Part shown: one piece after another, positions 2,265 through 29,406 of the stretch
How positions within the stretch are numbered: the stretch's first letter is position 1
How the letters are laid out: every line of letters starts with the position of its first letter
Virus record (IMG/VR): IMGVR_UViG_3300032267_000958
Location: 1-29,599 of that record
Length of the DNA: 29,599 nucleotides
Direction: 5' to 3' (one strand)
From: a virus
The notes under the pieces: model-generated
Seen by the model: only the letters and a program-made list of their open reading frames with translations
The model's database searches: none
What the model was told of the DNA's origin: nothing
Translations under genes and position numbers: made by a program

Positions 2265-4580
2265 TTATAGTCTTTTAACTTTCAAAATCCCTGAGTTTAA
2301 ATCTATATCAAAAGTGCCAATATTTCTGAAATAAACTCCGACATGATTATCACTAACTACCCTGGCGTCAATATTTAAATTGTCGCTATACACACTAAAT
2401 GAAGCCGCAATAGCATCACCTGATTTTACTCCATCTAACGTGACATCGAGAAAAGCATTACCCCCGCCGCTTAATTTTGGCGGGTCGTACGTTAGTGATG
2501 TTTCAACAACTGTATTCTGCTTAAGATTGGGTGTGACAGAATATAGATGATTGCTACTTATATAACTATTGATAATATTAATAACGCTATTGTCATTGTT
2601 TAGAAAAATAAAATAGCTACGATCTGCGATAACCGCACTGTCAATAATATTCACGATTGCAGGGTTAAAAACGGTATTTGCGGTGCACTGGATAAAGTAA
2701 TTAAATGATGTAACATTTGTCTTAACATTGTTCAACGTCAATAATTCAAACGCACAATCAATTAGTTTATCAATATTAGCCGTAACATTTTCAAGTGTAA
2801 TATTTTTTACTTTTGCACTACCACGAATAATACCAAACGGCTGCTGCACAACTTTGCTAACATTTCTAATCGTTAGATTTTCGCACGTTGCATCATCACC
2901 AACACATAACGCATTTTTAATCTCCCCAACATTGTCAATAGTTAAACTGCCAAATTTTGCAAGCCCAGCAAGTACAGGTGCATCTAGCGTCTTAATATTT
3001 TTAAATACTAGCTCTTTTACTGTTGCTACAAACGAACTATGGCAGTAACCAACATCGCTGACTTCTGCATAATTTATTTTCAGGAGGGCAATTAGTTCAG
3101 GCGTAGCACCGCCATAAAAAGTAACAGCACCGATATTTTTGTTTGCTATAAATCTATTAATTGTGGTGTCACCCTTTAATTCACAATGATATAGGACATA
3201 TTCATCTCCGTTTGTATATTTAATACAAGATGAGTCTTTAACAATTATATCACCACGATAAATAGGTCTATCTGCATAGTACAATTCGGGTTCTTCGTGA
3301 ATTAAGTTAGTGACAAGTACACGACCAGAGCCACCATGCAAATCATCTCTAAAGACACCATTTAGATTATCAACATATAGATTTTTACTATGATGATTTA
3401 CAAAAAGTCCCCAATATTGACCCCTACAATTTCTAATAATCATGTTATTAGTATATACTTGAGAATGTATGTTATAACTAACAGCAGGGCTTAGAAACTC
3501 TACATTATCAAACTCTAAATCATAATTTGTTTGTAAGTGTCCTGCAACATCCCATGTAATACCCGCAGTATTATCCCAATCCAAACCAAAACCTAACATA
3601 TGACCGTCAGCATGACCCCCACCTATCTCAAAATCACTAACGTACGGGTCGAATTTAATATTAGATAATTTAAACAAACCACTACCGTTAGGTAAGTCTG
3701 GGGCAAATAAAATAAGTGATGTCCCATGTTTTAGTTTAACCGTTTTATCATTCGCAATCGTTAAATTTTTAAGATGATGCACGCGTTTAAACCGCATCCC
3801 CCTAACTGGGTATTCATCAGTGTATCCAAACGCTGTCGGGTGTATGGTTTTAGGTGTCATCAAGCTATAACCTAAAAAGTCAATCTCGTAAATACGGCTA
3901 TCAGCATAATTAACCATACGCTGAATTTCTGTAGTTTGGTCAAGTGTGGAATTGTTGCGAATACCAAATTTACGGATATCAAAACTATCAGCAAAGACAG
4001 CGTGTAAGTTATTAGCGACAGGGATTGAGTAATCTGTAGCCGTGTCTTTGATTAAGTAACGCGCGCCGCCGCCATCGTTGGGTGTGTAATAGCCGTGCGT
4101 GATAACCGCTTTACCCGCTTTTAACTTAGTGTCTGCTACCATATCAGCAACAGTATTGTAAAATAGCGCAGTTTTATCATTGACTTGCTGCTGGGTCATG
4201 CCGCTTGAGTCTGCGACAAGTAATGCAGTCCAGCCGTTTTCTTGCGACTTAACAGCAGCAACGCTATCGATAGCGTTATCCATGTCATTTAATTTTGCAT
4301 CTAGCAAATTTTGCACATTGTCACGCGCTGAATTAATATCAAACATAGCAGCGTTAGCAGTCTGAGTTGTTAGCGTTTTATGAGCTTCGATTGCGCTAGT
4401 AGCTGCATTAGCTTGCTGATTGACAAGCTCAATCTTGTAACCGATAGTTGCAAGCGTCCAAATATAGCGACCTAATCGACTTTTAAATTGGATATTGGGT
4501 GCGCCATTAATCACATTCTCAAGGGTGTTAGCGTCTGTGATAGCGTTGCTAATCGCATTTACTACATCATTGTACGCCAT
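2265..4580 (-). CDS. Tailspike / tail fibre with beta-helix (pectate-lyase-like) body
   Basis: The 771-residue product has an N-terminal region (about 1-130) with alanine-rich helical segments that probably anchors it to the tail. Next comes a G-Y-Y-T-P-N-D-G-G-G-A-R-Y motif (about residues 163-175) common at the neck of phage tailspikes. The long central part has recurring short I-x-N-V/L-x and N-I-x-I-x-N patterns expected of a right-handed parallel beta-helix. Such proteins bind and often cleave surface polysaccharide. I see no unambiguous catalytic motif, so enzymatic activity is open. The ATG at 4580 follows a TTTGGAG site. It lies just after the TipJ tail-tip gene, as receptor-binding proteins do. 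Confidence 0.85.
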   Translation of the reverse strand: MAYNDVVNAISNAITDANTLENVINGAPNIQFKSRLGRYIWTLATIGYKIELVNQQANAATSAIEAHKTLTTQTANAAMFDINSARDNVQNLLDAKLNDMDNAIDSVAAVKSQENGWTALLVADSSGMTQQQVNDKTALFYNTVADMVADTKLKAGKAVITHGYYTPNDGGGARYLIKDTATDYSIPVANNLHAVFADSFDIRKFGIRNNSTLDQTTEIQRMVNYADSRIYEIDFLGYSLMTPKTIHPTAFGYTDEYPVRGMRFKRVHHLKNLTIANDKTVKLKHGTSLILFAPDLPNGSGLFKLSNIKFDPYVSDFEIGGGHADGHMLGFGLDWDNTAGITWDVAGHLQTNYDLEFDNVEFLSPAVSYNIHSQVYTNNMIIRNCRGQYWGLFVNHHSKNLYVDNLNGVFRDDLHGGSGRVLVTNLIHEEPELYYADRPIYRGDIIVKDSSCIKYTNGDEYVLYHCELKGDTTINRFIANKNIGAVTFYGGATPELIALLKINYAEVSDVGYCHSSFVATVKELVFKNIKTLDAPVLAGLAKFGSLTIDNVGEIKNALCVGDDATCENLTIRNVSKVVQQPFGIIRGSAKVKNITLENVTANIDKLIDCAFELLTLNNVKTNVTSFNYFIQCTANTVFNPAIVNIIDSAVIADRSYFIFLNNDNSVINIINSYISSNHLYSVTPNLKQNTVVETSLTYDPPKLSGGGNAFLDVTLDGVKSGDAIAASFSVYSDNLNIDARVVSDNHVGVYFRNIGTFDIDLNSGILKVKRL

Positions 4581-22866: not shown

Positions 22867-22992
22867 TTATGTTTTGTACGTGCGCGCACATGGAAGTAGT
22901 TGAGTTTTGGTGTCATTGCGGTCAGTGCATTGATAACACTGGGTTTTTGCGGTCATCGCTGCGGTCATCGCTGCGGTCACTGCGGTCATCAT
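22867..22992 (-). CDS. Possible 41-residue C-x2-C protein coupled to the helicase
   Basis: ATG 22992 overlaps the helicase stop (TAATG) and reads 41 codons to TAA. The first 15 residues are M/T/A/V repeats produced by the DNA repeat array, followed by Q-C-Y-Q-C-T-D-R and P-C-A-R. The cysteine pattern is suggestive of a zinc site, but the frame may be open only because the repeats come in multiples of three. Low confidence. Confidence 0.3.
   Translation of the reverse strand: MMTAVTAAMTAAMTAKTQCYQCTDRNDTKTQLLPCARTYKT
22948..22992 (+). repeat. Repeats of TGCGGTCATCGC next to the helicase stop
   Basis: Units TGCGGTCATCGC at 22948-22959 and 22960-22971, a shortened TGCGGTCAC at 22972-22980 and TGCGGTCATCAT at 22981-22992. 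On the other strand the core is ATGACCGCA, one base different from the ATGACAGCA iterons at 22836-22862. Confidence 0.8.
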
Positions 22993-25001
22993 TATGATGT
23001 GGCCCAGTATGGCGCATCATCACCCATAGCTTTGCTAGTTGGATACAAAGCTTGGTTAAATGCGATAGCTTCGCGGGTCACGTGATCTATAGCGTAAGGG
23101 TCTTGCTTATCAAACAAAGCCTGAGCTATTGGTGTCAACCAGACGCGGTGCGTGGTCTTTGGAGCCTTAAATGTAGGGAAACACATATTTTTACGTGAGT
23201 TTATCATAATCCTGTCAATCTCTGCATTAAAATCTCTATCGCGTTTTGGGTACTCGTTGCGCTCATTACACCAATTGCGATATGCCTTGAATAAATCCGC
23301 CTTTACACAGCAGCCGTATGGTACTGATAAATCACCTGCTGACCACTCATCATAAAAAAGCACAGGGTTGGGCTTACTAGCGTCAATCAGTTTTTGCTTA
23401 TCATTGTTTAGCGGTGGCTTGGTATGTGGATTAAAGCCATCCATGGGCAATGCCATTAGGTAGTGATAAAAACTGGCCACACCATCGCCGTTGATTTCGG
23501 CGAACAGGTCGTCAAAGTACTGCTTATCCGGCACGTCATCGATGCGCAAAACAAAGTAGCGTCTATCACCGATGTCTAGCTCAAGCGGTATCGGTGAGTT
23601 GGACAAAAAGACAAAGTTAGCATGGTTGGTCTCTTTATATGCTGGTAGCATTTTTTCATTGATAATAAATTCTTTGCCCGTTACCAAATGTTTAAGTTGC
23701 CCTTTGTGGTGGTTACGCTCTGCCCGACTGACAACCTCTTCGCATTGTGCAAATAAAATCTTAGATAGCCATCCGTTAAATTGCGACTCCAGCTGCTGTT
23801 GGCCAATCGTCCGATGGTACTCACTGCCATAGATTTTACCCAAGACTTTTTCCCACAAAATAGATTTACCGGGGCCTTCGCTGCCGTACATAATGACAGC
23901 GGTATCCATCTTGGCGCCTAGGTTTTGTAGTGGATAAGCCATCCAGCGCAACAACCACCAGTATTCATCTTGGCGACTGCCACACAATCGCCAGATATGT
24001 TTTAGTATCTTTTGACACTTGTCGGGTGATACGTCATCTTGCAGTGGTAAACCAGTAAACAAATTTATGGTGTTTTCTGGGATTTCACCTGACGGCTCAA
24101 ACACTAAGTCTTTGATAGTCTTGCGCATTGGATGGGTTTGCCATAGTTTAAAGTCGTCATTATTGCCAACGGCATGGCGTAATGCACTTAGTCGCATCCG
24201 TGTCTGATTGAGATTATCCCAGACATTATCAGTGCCATAAATCAAAAACAGATGCTCAACCATCCCGTCCAGTGCCCATCGCCCGTAACCGTCGGTAAGG
24301 TTGACCTTACAAGCCGGGGTAGAGTCTTTAGCATTTAACGGGGTGAGGGGTTTTATTTTATTTAACCAGTCATTGAGCGGGTTAAAACACTCATTAAACA
24401 TCTCATCATCAAAACCGAGTGCATTGGCTGGGTCAATACGCATGGGGATCTGTTTGACTTTGCCTTTGTCATAAGTACTTTTGCCCAGCCACTCAACCAA
24501 GTCATCATGTACCAAAATCGCCATAATGCGTGTCTTGTATTGCTCAACAACATATCTAAGTGATGCGCGCTCAAAGTAGACCATCGCTTGCACGGGTGTT
24601 GAGACTTGCTCAAGTACTGCATAAGCTTCAGGTACTGTGCGACACAATACAATTGGTGCGTCACCTGTGACATCACCAAAGCTGGCTGTGCCACGTGGAT
24701 AACCAAGCGGGGTATAATGTAGCTGCTGAAATGTTGGTGCAAGCCCATAAGACTCGGTAAAGTACACTAAGTCAGTAACTTCGCCATCTTTGCTATGCAA
24801 TTGCATGACAATGTGGTCTTTGAGTGAGATGTCTTTAGCACCATCATTGATGGTTGCGTTATCATGACATTGACGTAATCGTCCCGGCTGCCAGTTGCCC
24901 CAAGTGTAAAATTCGTGGTCGTCTGGCAATGGTATACTGTCTTGCCACATTTGCTGTAGCATTTGTTTTTGCTCAGGCGTATTGATAGATTTTTTAGCCA
25001 T
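22992..25001 (-). CDS. Primase-helicase (DUF5906 / SF3-like replicative helicase)
   Basis: The product of about 669 residues has an N-terminal primase/toprim-like part (about 1-230, including G-D-A-P-I-V-L-C-R-T-V-P-E-A-Y and I-L-V-H-D-D) and a C-terminal helicase with P-loop Y-G-S-E-G-P-G-K-S near residue 374, F-A-Q-C-E-E Walker-B-like near 420, and V-F-L-S-N-S-P-I-P near 467. This is the D5/DUF5906 type found in phages that start their own replication. I chose ATG 25001, which shares one base with the upstream stop (TAATG), over a GTG at 25013. An iteron-like zone lies just after its stop. Confidence 0.88.
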   Translation of the reverse strand: MAKKSINTPEQKQMLQQMWQDSIPLPDDHEFYTWGNWQPGRLRQCHDNATINDGAKDISLKDHIVMQLHSKDGEVTDLVYFTESYGLAPTFQQLHYTPLGYPRGTASFGDVTGDAPIVLCRTVPEAYAVLEQVSTPVQAMVYFERASLRYVVEQYKTRIMAILVHDDLVEWLGKSTYDKGKVKQIPMRIDPANALGFDDEMFNECFNPLNDWLNKIKPLTPLNAKDSTPACKVNLTDGYGRWALDGMVEHLFLIYGTDNVWDNLNQTRMRLSALRHAVGNNDDFKLWQTHPMRKTIKDLVFEPSGEIPENTINLFTGLPLQDDVSPDKCQKILKHIWRLCGSRQDEYWWLLRWMAYPLQNLGAKMDTAVIMYGSEGPGKSILWEKVLGKIYGSEYHRTIGQQQLESQFNGWLSKILFAQCEEVVSRAERNHHKGQLKHLVTGKEFIINEKMLPAYKETNHANFVFLSNSPIPLELDIGDRRYFVLRIDDVPDKQYFDDLFAEINGDGVASFYHYLMALPMDGFNPHTKPPLNNDKQKLIDASKPNPVLFYDEWSAGDLSVPYGCCVKADLFKAYRNWCNERNEYPKRDRDFNAEIDRIMINSRKNMCFPTFKAPKTTHRVWLTPIAQALFDKQDPYAIDHVTREAIAFNQALYPTSKAMGDDAPYWATS

Positions 25002-25516
25002 TATGCAACACACTCCAAATATTTAGCTGGATTGCCCTGCTCTTGGCTACGCACAATACGGATTTTGCCTTGTTTTTCGAGTGTGCGGCAAGCAACCAAA
25101 AAGCTGTCGCGTCTGACTTTTGCTTGGGTAATTAATTTATCAACATCAAGATACGCATGTTCGTTTAAAAGTCTTAATACCATTTCGGCTTGGGTGGCAC
25201 TGTGAGGAATAACATACTGCCCAAAAAATGGTTTGTAACCATCAATAGATTTTGGCGATGTCAAATTAACATCTTTTTGACTGACATAACTATGTTTACG
25301 ATTACGATTTGCTTCGGCTTTGCGACGTTCAGCTTGTTGTTGTTTTTCTTTATCAGTTTTGATAAATAAATTACTATGCGCTTGTTTGACGTCTCGTTTT
25401 TTTAATGGATCATTGTTGATGACAGCCGTTTCTACAAATCCGCGCTCTTTTTTCCACTCAGCAATCATGCGCTCTTGCTCTGCCAAGTCTGTTTTTGCAT
25501 ATCCTGATATCATCAT
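25001..25516 (-). CDS. Hypothetical replication-module protein with C-terminal winged helix
   Basis: The 171-residue protein has a charged, probably disordered middle (K-E-K-Q-Q-Q-A-E-R-R-K-A-E-A-N-R, about 56-71) and a C-terminal domain of about 75 residues that looks like a winged helix (A-T-Q-A-E-M-V-L-R-L-L-N-E, then C-R-T-L-E-K-Q-G-K-I-R-I-V). It overlaps the CII-family gene by four bases and the helicase gene by one. It might bind the origin or load the helicase, but that is a guess. GGAGG lies about 10 bases before the ATG. Confidence 0.72.
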   Translation of the reverse strand: MMISGYAKTDLAEQERMIAEWKKERGFVETAVINNDPLKKRDVKQAHSNLFIKTDKEKQQQAERRKAEANRNRKHSYVSQKDVNLTSPKSIDGYKPFFGQYVIPHSATQAEMVLRLLNEHAYLDVDKLITQAKVRRDSFLVACRTLEKQGKIRIVRSQEQGNPAKYLECVA

Positions 25517-26007
25517 GATTTGTTTGCCTCCATGTTTTTGCGAGCTGATTCAGTCAATGCTTTAATTGTCGCCATTAGTGCATTACTAACTTTGGCAATC
25601 TCATCATATTCAGCAGGGGTAATCACCGCATCGGCATGGGCATTAACAGCAGTATTTAGCATTTCGCCAAACTTCTGACCCAATTCGCCTAGGTTTTTCA
25701 TATATTCGGTTTGGTCGTTGGTATCATCATCCGGCAGTAAGAACCAACCTGCATTGCCATGTGCCGCACAGATTGAGTCTAAGATGCCCGTGTCTTTGGT
25801 GTAATCAATGACCATCTCTATCGTTTCAGGCGGTAGAGTATGTCCGTCACGATTGGGATTAATTTGCAGTGATAGCGTGTGAGGGTTACAGCCAAAGGTG
25901 GCAGCAATTGCAGCAATAGTGCCATGCTCTTTTTTGCATGCTTGATATACGGCTTGTTTTAGCGGTAGTACGCAGGGCGGAATATTTCTTTGTTTTGCTT
26001 GTGACAT
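25513..26007 (-). CDS. Phage regulatory protein, CII family (Phage_CP76)
   Basis: The 164-residue protein has L-K-Q-A-V-Y-Q-A-C-K-K-E-H-G-T-I-A-A-I-A followed by a helix-turn-helix (F-G-C-N-P-H-T-L-S-L-Q-I-N-P) and P-P-E-T-I-E-M-V, the pattern of the Phage_CP76 / CII-like family. It also has G-W-F-L-L-P, typical of the group. These proteins regulate lysogeny or replication genes. ATG 26007 has a GAG site; the frame also has a TTG at 26031 without a ribosome site. It is the second gene of the leftward early operon. Confidence 0.87.
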   Translation of the reverse strand: MSQAKQRNIPPCVLPLKQAVYQACKKEHGTIAAIAATFGCNPHTLSLQINPNRDGHTLPPETIEMVIDYTKDTGILDSICAAHGNAGWFLLPDDDTNDQTEYMKNLGELGQKFGEMLNTAVNAHADAVITPAEYDEIAKVSNALMATIKALTESARKNMEANKS

Positions 26008-26048
26008 TTTATAGCTCACTTTGTCGTTCAAATTAAACCGTTAATCTT

Positions 26049-26294
26049 TTATGCTGATTGTGTTGATTGAGCATCACACTCGTTAGCGGGGACTGGGAAA
26101 ATGTCAGGACGCAATTCATAGCATGGCACCCCAGTCACTTCGCTGATTTTTGCGACATATTTGGCAGATGCTTTTTTGTCGCGATTGACCCAGTTGGATA
26201 CGTTTTGCGGTTTTTCGATACCGATTTGCTCAGCTAGTTTTGAGCGGTTGCCAGCAATTTCGATTGCTTTCTCGAGGGCTTGTAAAGGCGTCAT
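26049..26294 (-). CDS. Cro-like repressor (YdaS/HTH family)
   Basis: The 81-residue protein has a helix-turn-helix: A-L-E-K-A-I-E-I-A-G, S-K-L-A-E-Q-I-G-I, N-V-S-N-W-V-N-R, with Y-V-A-K-I-S-E-V-T-G-V-P-C-Y-E-L-R-P-D-I-F-P, as in YdaS-type Cro proteins of lambdoid phages. It is transcribed away from the CI-like gene from a shared operator region. An AAAGGAT site precedes ATG 26294. It likely turns off repressor synthesis at the start of lytic growth. Confidence 0.88.
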   Translation of the reverse strand: MTPLQALEKAIEIAGNRSKLAEQIGIEKPQNVSNWVNRDKKASAKYVAKISEVTGVPCYELRPDIFPVPANECDAQSTQSA

Positions 26295-26325: not shown

Positions 26326-26354
26326 ATTAAATCACTTGATTTATTAAATGTCAA
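26326..26354 (-). promoter_or_regulatory. Putative leftward early promoter for the cro-like operon
   Basis: TTGACA (26354-26349) and TTTAAT (26331-26326) are 17 bp apart; TAATAT overlaps two bases further. A perfect operator palindrome sits in the spacer. Confidence 0.75.
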
Positions 26355-26388
26355 TCATTTGTGTTTTTAGAAATAAATCATTTGCTTT
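26329..26388. promoter_or_regulatory. Three-site operator between repressor and cro-like gene
   Basis: Sites fitting AAATCA-NN-TGATTT lie at 26329-26342 (perfect), 26352-26365 (CAATCA..TGTGTT) and 26375-26388 (AAATCA..TGCTTT). Starts are exactly 23 bp apart. The perfect site is nearest the lytic gene. Confidence 0.85.
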
Positions 26389-26393
26389 ATATT
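26365..26393 (+). promoter_or_regulatory. Putative repressor maintenance promoter
   Basis: TATATT (26388-26393) is a fair -10, but the -35 position (26365-26370, TTTTAG) is poor. It abuts operator 2, as if the repressor activates its own gene. Confidence 0.45.
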
Positions 26394-26425
26394 GTAATTA
26401 AGCATTGATTGAAGGAGGGAAAAAA

Positions 26426-27148
26426 ATGGCATTAGGTGCGAGAGTTAGACAAGCAAGAGAAGCGCGCGGGCTTAACCAAACGGAACTTGCGGAAGCAATC
26501 AACTGGACGCCTCAAGCTTTATCTACACTTGAGAGACGAGATAGCAAAAAAAGTGAACGCGCTGGAGATTTAGCTAATTTTTTGCGTGTCAATTTAAGTT
26601 GGTTATTAAATGGTAGTGGTAAAAGTGGACTTGAAGGTGTAGATGAAGATGATAATGAAATGGTTATCACAGGTACTTTGGATTCTTGGGATGAACACAC
26701 TCCTTTACTAGATGATGAGGTGTTAGTTTCTTTGTTTGATGAGGTGCAATTCGCCTGTGGTGACGAGCTGTATAATATAGAGTATCAAGACACAGGTAAA
26801 AAAACTCGCTTTAGCAAAGCAAAACTTGATAAGGCAGGTGTAAAGGCAAAAAATGTTGTAGTCGCCAAGGCATATGGCAACAGCAACTATCCGCTCATTA
26901 CTGATGGGGCAACGATTGCTTATGATACTAGCAAGGCAACTGAGCGACTCAAAGAAGATAAGTTTTACGCAATGGAAGTAGGCGGTGGGCTTAAAATTAA
27001 AACCGTTCGGTTTTTGCATGATAACAATATAGAGATTTGCACCCACAACAGGGACTATCCTTGCATCACATTGACCAAAAAAGAATTTTCAGAGACGCAC
27101 CGCATACTTGGCTGGGTGTTCTGGTGGGAAAATTTAGAAAAATGGTAA
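26426..27148 (+). CDS. CI-like prophage repressor (XRE HTH plus S24/LexA peptidase domain)
   Basis: The 240-residue protein has an N-terminal XRE helix-turn-helix (V-R-Q-A-R-E-A-R-G-L-N-Q-T-E-L-A, T-P-Q-A-L-S-T-L-E), an acidic linker and a C-terminal S24 domain. The likely catalytic Ser is in Y-G-N-S-N-Y-P and the Lys in L-K-I-K-T-V-R-F. F-A-C-G-D before it offers a Cys-Gly self-cleavage site. RecA-triggered self-cleavage would induce the phage. ATG 26426 has AGGAGG seven bases before it; an upstream TTG does not. It is flanked by two operator triplets. Confidence 0.93.
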   Translation: MALGARVRQAREARGLNQTELAEAINWTPQALSTLERRDSKKSERAGDLANFLRVNLSWLLNGSGKSGLEGVDEDDNEMVITGTLDSWDEHTPLLDDEVLVSLFDEVQFACGDELYNIEYQDTGKKTRFSKAKLDKAGVKAKNVVVAKAYGNSNYPLITDGATIAYDTSKATERLKEDKFYAMEVGGGLKIKTVRFLHDNNIEICTHNRDYPCITLTKKEFSETHRILGWVFWWENLEKW

Positions 27149-27162
27149 CTTTTGGTTATTTT

Positions 27163-27222
27163 AAATCATTATTTTAAACAATAATAAATCAAATGATTGA
27201 CATTATATAAATCAAGTGATTT
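27163..27222. promoter_or_regulatory. Second three-site operator, upstream of the rightward operon
   Basis: Sites at 27163-27176 (AAATCA half only), 27186-27199 (AAATCA..TGATTG) and 27209-27222 (perfect AAATCA-AG-TGATTT), again with exact 23-bp steps. The perfect site is nearest the operon it would silence. Confidence 0.85.
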
Positions 27223-27225
27223 AAT
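27197..27225 (+). promoter_or_regulatory. Putative rightward early promoter
   Basis: TTGACA (27197-27202), 17-bp spacer with a perfect operator, TTTAAT (27220-27225). The 36 bp at 27190-27225 match the inverted 26326-26361 with two differences. Confidence 0.75.
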
Positions 27226-27256
27226 TATATCCATGCTCAACAACGACATGGATATA
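27226..27256 (+). repeat. Perfect 10-bp inverted repeat in the early leader
   Basis: TATATCCATG (27226-27235) pairs with CATGGATATA (27247-27256), loop of 11 bases, right at the predicted mRNA 5' end and six bases before the ATG at 27262. Confidence 0.75.
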
Positions 27257-27261
27257 TCACT

Positions 27262-27660
27262 ATGGCTTACACTGCATCTTTACCCAAAGCATTTAATCAA
27301 ATCGCGCACAACACTGCGCAACTCACTGAAGCTAACCGCCCACCTTTACCATGCTCAAGCCGTAATGGAGGGGTTTCAGATGATGTAATCAATCCCACCT
27401 CTATCAATAAATCTATCCTAGCTATTGATGCGCGTGATGATATCTATCAAGCAATGCTTGATGACGATATCGACCTTTACAACCCGCATCTTAACGTCCG
27501 TGACGCATATATCCGGCACGTTGAACAGCAAAACGCTGACCTCAAGACTCAAATCAACGACTTACAAGACCTATTAAGCCAGTCGGACCGCGTTATTCTT
27601 GCGCTGCTCGCCTCACTACTCGTATTTGCGGTCATTGCTGTCGCAATGGTTTGGAGATAG
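27262..27660 (+). CDS. Hypothetical C-tail-anchored membrane protein
   Basis: The 132-residue protein is not recognised. It has a polar N-terminal half, a short coiled coil (H-V-E-Q-Q-N-A-D-L-K-T-Q-I-N-D-L, about 86-101) and one membrane segment at its very end (I-L-A-L-L-A-S-L-L-V-F-A-V-I-A-V). It is the first gene of the rightward early operon. No clear ribosome site is visible; a hairpin fills the leader. Membrane placement early after infection would suit an exclusion or host-takeover role, but nothing in the sequence proves it. Confidence 0.72.
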   Translation: MAYTASLPKAFNQIAHNTAQLTEANRPPLPCSSRNGGVSDDVINPTSINKSILAIDARDDIYQAMLDDDIDLYNPHLNVRDAYIRHVEQQNADLKTQINDLQDLLSQSDRVILALLASLLVFAVIAVAMVWR

Positions 27661-27664
27661 TGAC

Positions 27665-28288
27665 ATGACTCAACAAACTTATATTCCAGACTGGTCAAAA
27701 GCCCCAAATGATGCCAATTGGCACGCGCGCGATAGCGACGGCTGTGGATTTTGGTACAACAAGCGCCCTGCCCCAATCCTCGGATTTTGGACAGCAGGTT
27801 GTAGCTTGACCATTGCCGATAACGATTGTCCTGTTTTAGACCATGACGCCGCGCTGGATAACTGGCGTGACACGCTGACAGTGCGACCATTTCAACACCG
27901 CGACATCCCACAAAATCTATCTGATTATTTTACCGGCAAAACGCCCTTTATCACTGCGTATGCTGATTTGCTTTTGGCGCGGATGGCGAAAGAAGACAGA
28001 TATAGTGATGACGATTGCGTTGGTGAATTTCCAGCGCCAGATGCGCCCGATGTATGTATTTATTCTCGAGATGGAGAAAGTGAGCATTTTGCAATCATCT
28101 TAGGCAAAGAAACTTCTGGATATAGCACTCGTTTATTTACTTGGGTTTTGGGTAGTAGAGATAACTCTTTTGGTTTCTTTAATTTAGACGACACCGATTT
28201 TTCATCCGAATCCGAATCTTGGTTACGCACCATCACCGAACTTGAAGCCGTGGAATTTCGCGCGGCAATGGAGGCAGTATATGGCTAA
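27665..28288 (+). CDS. Hypothetical acidic early phage protein
   Basis: The 207-residue protein begins with I-P-D-W-S-K-A-P-N-D-A-N-W-H-A-R and G-F-W-Y-N-K-R-P, a short W-rich motif I associate with uncharacterised phage proteins. The rest is very acidic (E/D-rich, for example Y-S-D-D-D-C) without membrane segments. ATG 27665 follows a GGAG site; the frame is open for 22 codons upstream but without a ribosome site. Function unknown; acidic small proteins of this sort are sometimes DNA mimics or inhibitors. Confidence 0.75.
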   Translation: MTQQTYIPDWSKAPNDANWHARDSDGCGFWYNKRPAPILGFWTAGCSLTIADNDCPVLDHDAALDNWRDTLTVRPFQHRDIPQNLSDYFTGKTPFITAYADLLLARMAKEDRYSDDDCVGEFPAPDAPDVCIYSRDGESEHFAIILGKETSGYSTRLFTWVLGSRDNSFGFFNLDDTDFSSESESWLRTITELEAVEFRAAMEAVYG

Positions 28289-28640
28289 AACAGCTACCCA
28301 ACTACTGCGTCGCTTGATGACCAAAGCTGACTTGAGTAACCAAGTTAGCGCCATTGCTTTATTAAATGCCCGTCAAACCTGGTCAGACTATGTTGATACG
28401 CCAGATAATCAGCGCGATTGGACTGACGTTCAGACTGTTTTAACTGAACTCAGCATCATTGTTAAGCAAATATGCGCGGGCGATTGTCGCATCAATCCAG
28501 AGACGCGCAAAGATTTGGCGGATTTGGTCACGATGCTACGCCATAGCATGGCAACAGGCGAAATCCTTGAGCCAAAACCAATCCCAATGCCAATGCCTGA
28601 ACCAGCCAATGATGATGACGATGGTAAGGAGGCTGCCTAA
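28281..28640 (+). CDS. Hypothetical helical protein with proline-rich acidic tail
   Basis: The 119-residue protein is mostly helical (A-T-Q-L-L-R-R-L-M-T-K, then V-L-T-E-L-S-I-I-V-K-Q-I) and ends in P-K-P-I-P-M-P-M-P-E-P followed by N-D-D-D-D-G. Not recognised. ATG 28281 has GGAGG eight bases before it and overlaps the previous stop by eight bases; an earlier in-frame ATG (28242) lacks such a site. Confidence 0.75.
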   Translation: MAKTATQLLRRLMTKADLSNQVSAIALLNARQTWSDYVDTPDNQRDWTDVQTVLTELSIIVKQICAGDCRINPETRKDLADLVTMLRHSMATGEILEPKPIPMPMPEPANDDDDGKEAA

Positions 28641-29128
28641 TGCCTTTTGTTATCAGTATAAGCGGCGCTGAAAAAATCGGTGTGAGCGTGGCTTGTCAAC
28701 GGCTCTACCATGCACTGCGCCACACGCACACGGTCAAAATTGTTGACATGAAAACGCGCAACAATGTCATGGCGTTTGAAGATGACCTGCTAACCGATGA
28801 ATACAAAGACTTTGACGTGCTGATCATCGATAAGCACCCGTATATCAGCTCTGCCCTGCATCGCAATCTGCGCTCATCGTTGTTTGATGATGACAGCGTC
28901 AAGCCTGACATCAGTTTTGTCATGGTTTGCCGTTTTGACACCTACAAACAGCGTCGACCACAAGCAAAAGTCTCTTATAACTTGCTTGATAGTTATGCCA
29001 CCAGTGCACCCAAGTACTTTGGCACAGACAATCATCACCGCATTGCTTGTGACGGCGCGGATGGTCAGCTTGCTTGTGCGGGGAAAATCATAGCAAAAGT
29101 GCGTAAGGAGTTAATCCGATGCAAATGA
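28640..29128 (+). CDS. Hypothetical protein with degenerate P-loop
   Basis: The 162-residue protein starts V-I-S-I-S-G-A-E-K-I-G-V-S-V-A-C, which lines up with a P-loop strand and helix, but where the catalytic Lys should be there is a Val (residue 15). F-D-V-L-I-I-D (59-65) looks like a Walker B strand. It could be an inactive relative of nucleoside-monophosphate kinases or ParA/MinD-type ATPases. The ATG shares its A with the previous stop (TAATG) after a strong AAGGAGG site. No known function. Confidence 0.72.
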   Translation: MPFVISISGAEKIGVSVACQRLYHALRHTHTVKIVDMKTRNNVMAFEDDLLTDEYKDFDVLIIDKHPYISSALHRNLRSSLFDDDSVKPDISFVMVCRFDTYKQRRPQAKVSYNLLDSYATSAPKYFGTDNHHRIACDGADGQLACAGKIIAKVRKELIRCK

Positions 29129-29406
29129 CGTTATCACTCAATCGCCGAACTCACCTATTTATCAGAGATGGCAGATTGTTTTTTAAGCTGTACAAACAAA
29201 GTCAGTTTACTGACAAAAAAGATTATGCGGTACTCAGTGACGTGCCAATTGAGCAAGCTGAGGCAATACATAAATGGTTGGGAGAGGCAATTGATGCAAC
29301 AAAACAAGGCGATCCAGTCACAATCAGCACCCCAAAACCGGATATCCAGCATCACATCGATAATCTACTTGTTTTTACAAAGTCAAAAAAAGCTGTCGGT
29401 CGCTGA
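29119..29406 (+). CDS. Hypothetical 95-residue early protein
   Basis: Not recognised. The first half forms beta strands (T-H-L-F-I-R-D-G-R-L-F-F-K-L-Y) and the second half a helix (I-E-Q-A-E-A-I-H-K-W-L-G-E-A-I). ATG 29119 follows AAGGAG and overlaps the previous gene by 10 bases. Its last 113 bases overlap another reading frame with a winged-helix protein. Confidence 0.68.
   Translation: MQMTLSLNRRTHLFIRDGRLFFKLYKQSQFTDKKDYAVLSDVPIEQAEAIHKWLGEAIDATKQGDPVTISTPKPDIQHHIDNLLVFTKSKKAVGR

Follow-up and report, generated by a model that had tools for sequence, protein, structure and literature searches.

In lambda-type phages, PR and PL are normally inversely oriented, and in both lambda and 434, CI bound at OR2 activates PRM, while OR3 serves to block it. 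The annotated layout of phi80 is OR-cI-40A-OL, with three sites in each operator (i.e., OR(3)-cI-OL(3)). Compact arrangements are known from HK022 and phiKO2, in which OL and OR are separated by ~700 and ~630 bp, respectively, and both of these loop in vivo (PMC8053113). In phiKO2, the repressor gene lies between three OR sites and two OL sites; the repressor (CB) binds these five sites, Cro binds only OR3, and OL is bound by the repressor only (PMC4997575).

We analysed the virus record IMGVR_UViG_3300032267_000958 (positions 1 to 29,599; this whole stretch of 29,599 bases is hereafter called the window), in which a cI-type gene is preceded leftward by Cro-like, CII-like, and primase genes and followed rightward by an early operon, i.e., the lambda gene order (Table 1). 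The phage appears to be temperate and of the lambda type, and its host is probably a bacterium of the Moraxella family. The initial annotation had proposed a compact switch with one repressor gene alone between OR and OL. This reading, in which the cI-type gene and its putative operators form a compact lysogeny switch, is strongly supported by gene order, by homology, and by at least 17 syntenic relatives that keep the same layout. Since HK022 and phiKO2 are compact and their looping has been demonstrated, a switch of this kind is not new; the host group is poorly studied.

Table 1. Coordinates of the features of the switch region and its neighbouring genes (positions in the window).
Feature	Position	Strand	Description
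Primase/helicase-like replication gene	22992..25013	-	DUF5906, VapE-like; PR operon
CII-like activator	25513..26016	-	PF06892, phrog_101
cro-like gene	26049..26294	-	YdaS/CI-type HTH, 81 aa; first PR-operon gene; same place in syntenic loci
Inverted repeat arm 1	26326..26369	+	44 bp, 89% complementary to arm 2
PR	26326..26354	-	TTGACA (26354-26349) -17- TTTAAT (26331-26326); mirrored copy of PL
OR1	26329..26342		AAATCACTTGATTT; exact, 12/12; within PR spacer
OR2	26352..26365		CAATCATTTGTGTT; 3 mismatches, 9/12; overlaps PR -35
PRM candidate	26366..26393	+	TTTAGA-16-TATATT; predicted start ~26400; 9/12
OR3	26375..26388		AAATCATTTGCTTT; 1 mismatch, 11/12; within PRM spacer
cI-type repressor	26426..27148	+	240 aa; HTH_3 + Peptidase S24; SD AAGGAGGG at 26412-26419
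Putative OL3	27163..27176		AAATCATTATTTTA; half-site only, 8/12; no match within 3 mismatches
Inverted repeat arm 2	27182..27225	-	44 bp, 89% complementary to arm 1
OL2	27186..27199		AAATCAAATGATTG; 1 mismatch, 11/12; overlaps PL -35
PL	27197..27225	+	TTGACA (27197-27202) -17- TTTAAT (27220-27225)
OL1	27209..27222		AAATCAAGTGATTT; exact, 12/12; within PL spacer
PL-leader hairpin	27226..27255	+	TATATCCATG-CTCAACAACGA-CATGGATAT(A); just upstream of first PL gene
First PL-operon gene	27262..27660	+	132 aa, hydrophobic C-terminus; conserved syntenic place
Further PL-operon genes	27665..29406	+	27665-28288, 28284-28640, 28640-29128, 29119-29406

The whole window was searched with the site pattern AAATCANNTGATTT, allowing up to three mismatches. 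Three regularly spaced operators (steps of 23 and 23 bp) lie between cI and cro and overlap PR and PRM, and a second group at PL bears the same type of site, with two clear members. The step between neighbouring sites is exactly 23 bp at both OR and OL, as the initial annotation had stated, and the centres of OR2 and OL2 are 834 bp apart. OR1 and OL1 are perfect palindromes in the 12 outer bases only. Among 60 simulated 29.6-kb sequences that kept the dinucleotide make-up, there was no exact site, and one-mismatch sites averaged 0.38 per sequence; since the window holds two exact and two one-mismatch sites, all in register, the cluster is not due to chance. Outside the cluster, only sites with two or three mismatches were found across the window, in keeping with chance expectation. 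The initial annotation had counted six sites, of which five are supported. The sixth (at 27163) has a perfect left half and matches 2/6 positions in the right half, for which the chance is ~0.03 at that place in DNA of that composition. Its description of "two triple operators" was therefore too strong: OR has three sites, while OL has two clear sites and a half-site, and the OLs that are legible in relatives likewise have two sites, as does that of phiKO2. Because OR2 is a poorer match than OR3, the filling order may differ from that in lambda.

The TTGACA-17-TTTAAT promoters that had been noticed in both blocks were confirmed, with O1 in the spacer of each. A stricter promoter scan does not return PR and PL, because their -10 box lacks an A at position 2 (i.e., the -11 A); each carries an extended TGn motif that doubles as an operator half-site. 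PRM on its own is a weak match to the consensus, and its position is that seen in phi80. Relative to the predicted PRM start, OR2 and OR3 are centred at ~-41.5 and ~-18.5, respectively, and the phi80 annotation places them at -42 and -18. The geometry of the window would thus fit activation of PRM from OR2 and its block from OR3.

The repressor consists of an N-terminal HTH and a C-terminal S24 (LexA-like) domain (HTH_3, 2.6e-10; S24, 1.7e-7; phrog_4 repressor, 1.6e-36). It is 35.7% identical to phi80 CI over the full length, and its N-terminal DNA-binding domain resembles that of the 434 repressor (2.6e-8). Single-sequence searches found no close relatives of the protein, and a DNA search of the region matched no phage record. 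Ser152, Lys191, and Gly111 are invariant in the repressor alignment, and the window protein has C110-G111; the Ser152/Lys191 dyad and C110-G111 fit a self-cleavage site, and the protein is predicted to be an SOS-inducible repressor.

On the basis of these features, we infer the following mechanism. The cro, cII, and replication genes would be transcribed leftward from PR and cI rightward from PRM, while PL, directly after cI, would drive the rightward early operon. A CI dimer would bind the AAATCANNTGATTT sites; on OR1/OR2 and OL1/OL2, it would cover the spacers and -35 boxes of PR and PL, which would leave both lytic operons silent. From OR2 (~-41.5 of PRM), CI may activate its own promoter, and CI or Cro on OR3, within the PRM spacer, would stop transcription from PRM. 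Prophage induction would follow from RecA-stimulated self-cleavage of CI (Ser152/Lys191, C110-G111). To this reading as a whole (i.e., silencing of PR and PL by CI at OR1/OR2 and OL1/OL2, possible activation of PRM by OR2-bound CI, limitation of PRM through OR3, and CI self-cleavage upon DNA damage) we assign a probability of about 0.9. The points against it are the match of OR2 at only 9/12 positions, the half-site at OL3, the -10 boxes of PR and PL without the -11 A, the weakness of PRM, and the departure of relatives from the 23-bp step (24 or ~25 bp).

Relatives of the switch were sought in IMG/VR and in 349 genomes from the family (Moraxellaceae) to which Acinetobacter sp. BY419 belongs. 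About 18 phages and prophages (at least 17) share a syntenic block of primase, CII, Cro, cI, and PL operon. They fall into six operator classes (AAATCAnnTGATTT, which is that of the window, TAATCAnnTGTTGT, TTACAnnTGTAA, GTTACAnnTGTAAC, AGCAnnTGCT, and AACAnnTGTT), all built on a CAnnTG core and all with arms that mirror each other near cI. The recognition helix of the repressor sorts with the operator (QALSTLE with AATCAnnTG, PSVIGN with TTACAnnTGTAA, QPVIGS with GCAnnTGC, and QGAIGN with AACAnnTGTT). The operator step, as read from the PR/PL blocks, is 23 bp in the window class, 24 bp in the second, and ~25 bp in the third. Related phages that keep the genes but not the 23-bp spacing had been named in advance as evidence against the switch. 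Such phages exist (24 or ~25 bp), but they do not refute it, since within each class the OR step equals the OL step and both change together with the repressor. The design is conserved across the relatives, while the 23-bp number is specific to one class. When IMG/VR was scanned for pairs of sites spaced by a 23-bp step, 20 loci were returned, and not one of them has a homologous repressor; as the identical operator pair was not found elsewhere, conservation was tested through homologues. An unrelated viral contig (L003, 10561-10592) carries two AATCAAGTGATT-type sites spaced by a 23-bp step, and no homologous repressor was found there.

Two of the relatives, L235 and L236, are close siblings of the window phage. 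Most of their replication and PL genes are 92 to 94% identical to its own, but their cI is foreign and their operators are foreign and match that cI. The difference is a classic heteroimmune exchange, and a recombination joint seems to lie inside cro. The C-terminal coding half of cro (window 26050-26190) is ~89% identical to that of the siblings, and the N-terminal half and the operators diverge. Mosaic repressors were also seen (L219, L220, L242, L244, L245, and L247), with a DNA-binding domain 55 to 58% identical to that of the window, an unrelated C-terminal half, and related operators.

The siblings and the operator classes bear on which protein reads the palindromes. These could primarily be operators of the Cro-like (YdaS-type) protein, or one protein could use a subset of the sites, with CI reading them secondarily. 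The Cro-like gene adjoins the sites, its product has an HTH, and split specificity exists, as in phiKO2, where Cro binds only OR3 and CB binds five sites (PMC4997575). However, the operator class changes with the recognition helix of CI, the heteroimmune siblings keep a Cro-like protein 72 to 73% identical to that of the window while cI and the operators change, and the phiKO2 OL region is bound by the repressor and not by Cro. We consider either arrangement very improbable.

The likeness of the two operator regions goes beyond the binding sites. An inverse match of 36 bp with two differences had been described; this description is correct, and the match extends to 44 bp at 89% (E = 1.3e-11; better than every shuffle). 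The mirrored block takes in O1, O2, and the promoter. The third sites lie outside it; their better half is the left one at OR as well as at OL, so that they do not mirror each other. That PR and PL point in opposite directions is itself expected from the lambda order, in which PR leads away from cI, PRM leads into cI, and PL runs along the cI direction. Within one phage, the PR and PL blocks have a mean identity of 77%, while a given promoter compared between classes averages 52%, which argues that both operators track the repressor. The operator may plausibly have been duplicated or homogenised, and selection for binding of one repressor also contributes to the likeness of the arms. We also considered the arms as mainly a recombination feature (i.e., the ends of an invertible segment carrying cI) without a regulatory role. 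The arms measure 38 to 46 bp in several relatives, with up to 39/40 identical positions, and their identical bases include spacer without an evident operator role. Yet the orientation of cI with respect to cro and the PL operon is constant in every relative examined, operator and promoter fully account for each arm, and no recombinase-type site was seen; the invertible segment is already disfavoured, and we regard it as extremely improbable.

Given operators that bind CI as proposed, cooperative binding and OL-OR looping over ~0.83 kb are plausible, because HK022 and phiKO2 loop in vivo at comparable distances. OR and OL might instead act as independent operators, each with short-range cooperativity and without long-range looping. 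OL3 is degenerate in the window, and contacts between OL3 and OR3 matter for PRM control in lambda. In addition, one lambdoid repressor, that of 933W, is described as apparently lacking cooperativity (PMC3317979). On the other hand, all three lambdoid repressors tested form loops (lambda, HK022, and phiKO2; PMC8053113), and the natural OL-OR distances of HK022 and phiKO2 resemble that of the window. Looping is thus likely, and independent operators are a serious but less probable alternative.

The sole unusual extra of the switch is a hairpin in the PL leader, which is not known to have been reported before. In the window, TATATCCATG-CTCAACAACGA-CATGGATATA directly follows the PL -10 box (-13.9 kcal/mol; z = -4.5). 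Besides the window, the hairpin loci include L218, L219, L221, L231, and L236-L248. The paired arms vary within the group, and the TCAACAA loop is constant; in the relatives that were read, which represent all six immunity classes, the -35 box and the loop start 39 to 40 nt apart, and the hairpin precedes the first PL gene wherever the neighbourhood was read. Among 13 distinct hairpin sequences, 116 of the 117 pair cells hold standard pairs, with two pairs altered on both sides and four with a one-sided change to G-U. With a covariance model, each of 19 group loci and six genomes of the family gave exactly one copy, on the forward strand. A search of distant compact relatives, among them phiEt88 and phi80, did not find the hairpin, and Rfam gave no match above threshold in the region.

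In IS10, a read-through protection hairpin blocks translation; hairpins of this type have the promoter start within the 5' arm and the initiation region within or beside the 3' arm. With its predicted start site, the geometry of the window would match this general description of the IS10 type, and the pairing is conserved. Since the predicted PL start falls within the 5' arm and a scan found no terminator between cI and PL, the full hairpin would be present only in cI read-through RNA. RNA started at PL, without most of the 5' arm, would be translatable, while in cI read-through RNA the full hairpin would form beside the first PL gene's start codon and so keep that gene silent. We suggest such an IS10-like RNA lock, which would shield the compact cI-OL layout from lysogenic read-through, only as a tentative and rather doubtful possibility, because the independent covarying changes are few and the PL start is predicted. 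We know of no description of such a lock in a phage early operon. The hairpin may instead be a nut-like antitermination element. Family searches of the PL operon found no N-like gene or known nut-type RNA; the genes that follow the first one have syntenic homologues in ~18 loci. The hairpin poses the simple, testable question of how, in a compact switch, the expression of lytic genes from cI transcripts is prevented. If PL starts at ~27233, its RNA would begin with the AUG of an overlapping 51-codon frame (27233-27388; MLNNDMDISLWL...). L236 also has AUGCUCAACAAC at its PL start, and the AUG may be a coincidence.

By itself, the switch is ordinary. Its value is that it belongs to a natural series of matched repressor/operator specificities. 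There are at least six of these, all sharing the CAnnTG core, and among the phages are siblings whose flanks are 92 to 94% identical and whose immunity has been exchanged. The series suits tests of the joint evolution of repressor recognition, operator spacing (23/24/25 bp), and OR-OL homogenisation.

Compact layouts also occur among more distant homologues. Profile searches gave 160 homologous repressors and 83 nonredundant testable loci, in which the region upstream of cI was compared with the 300 bp after cI for an inverted match (score of at least 28). Shuffles and mismatched pairs served as controls for the arm alignment, and an automatic operator finder, which was noisy in AT-rich loci, was replaced. 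An inverted OR/OL-type match was found in 12 of the 83 loci (window included), versus 6 of 602 mismatched pairs of similar composition. The positive loci include Erwinia phage phiEt88 (L032) and prophages of Xenorhabdus, Hafnia, Rosenbergiella, Gilliamella, and Morganella. Like the window, phiEt88 and these prophages have a homologous repressor and a mirrored compact OR/OL within ~190 bp of the cI stop. Their steps are mostly 24 to 25 bp on both sides where readable, compared with 23 bp in the window, and their operator sequences and early genes are different. In phi80 and HK225, the same mirrored arms lie 1.3 to 1.7 kb beyond cI. The window shares with phi80 a full-length CI homologue, a Cro-like homologue, an OR2 at about -42 of PRM (predicted in the window), and the mirrored arms; in phi80, however, a further gene separates cI from OL, which lies 1.3 kb downstream, the OR1-OR2 step is 33 bp, and the operators are 19 bp long and of different sequence.

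The compact OL-cI-OR of HK022 resembles that of the window, but HK022 belongs to another host group and has other sequences, and its OL2 and OL3 are 53 bp apart (PMC8053113), versus a step of 23 bp in the window. In the immB region of N15/phiKO2, as in the window, the repressor gene (cB) is alone between OR and OL (~630 bp), and the three OR and two OL sites of phiKO2 equal the clear-site count of the window, with operators of 16 bp in N15/phiKO2. CB of N15/phiKO2 is without the self-cleavage residues (PMC4997575), whereas the window CI has the Ser/Lys dyad and the C-G site. Unlike the window OL, that of phiKO2 controls plasmid replication. Lambda has ~2.3 kb between OL and OR, compared with 0.83 kb here, and the window is without a rex-like gene in this interval and differs from lambda and 434 in operator sequence. 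The cI-OL position that rex occupies in lambda is taken in L235 by an extra gene (~3684-4560), judged by eye to encode a DnaQ-like exonuclease, and the mirrored arms of L235 lie 0.9 kb beyond cI, past this gene. The window shares with lambda and 434 the same logic and gene order, and its DNA-binding domain resembles that of the 434 repressor. The 434 operators are 14-bp sites in steps of ~23 bp, as in the window.
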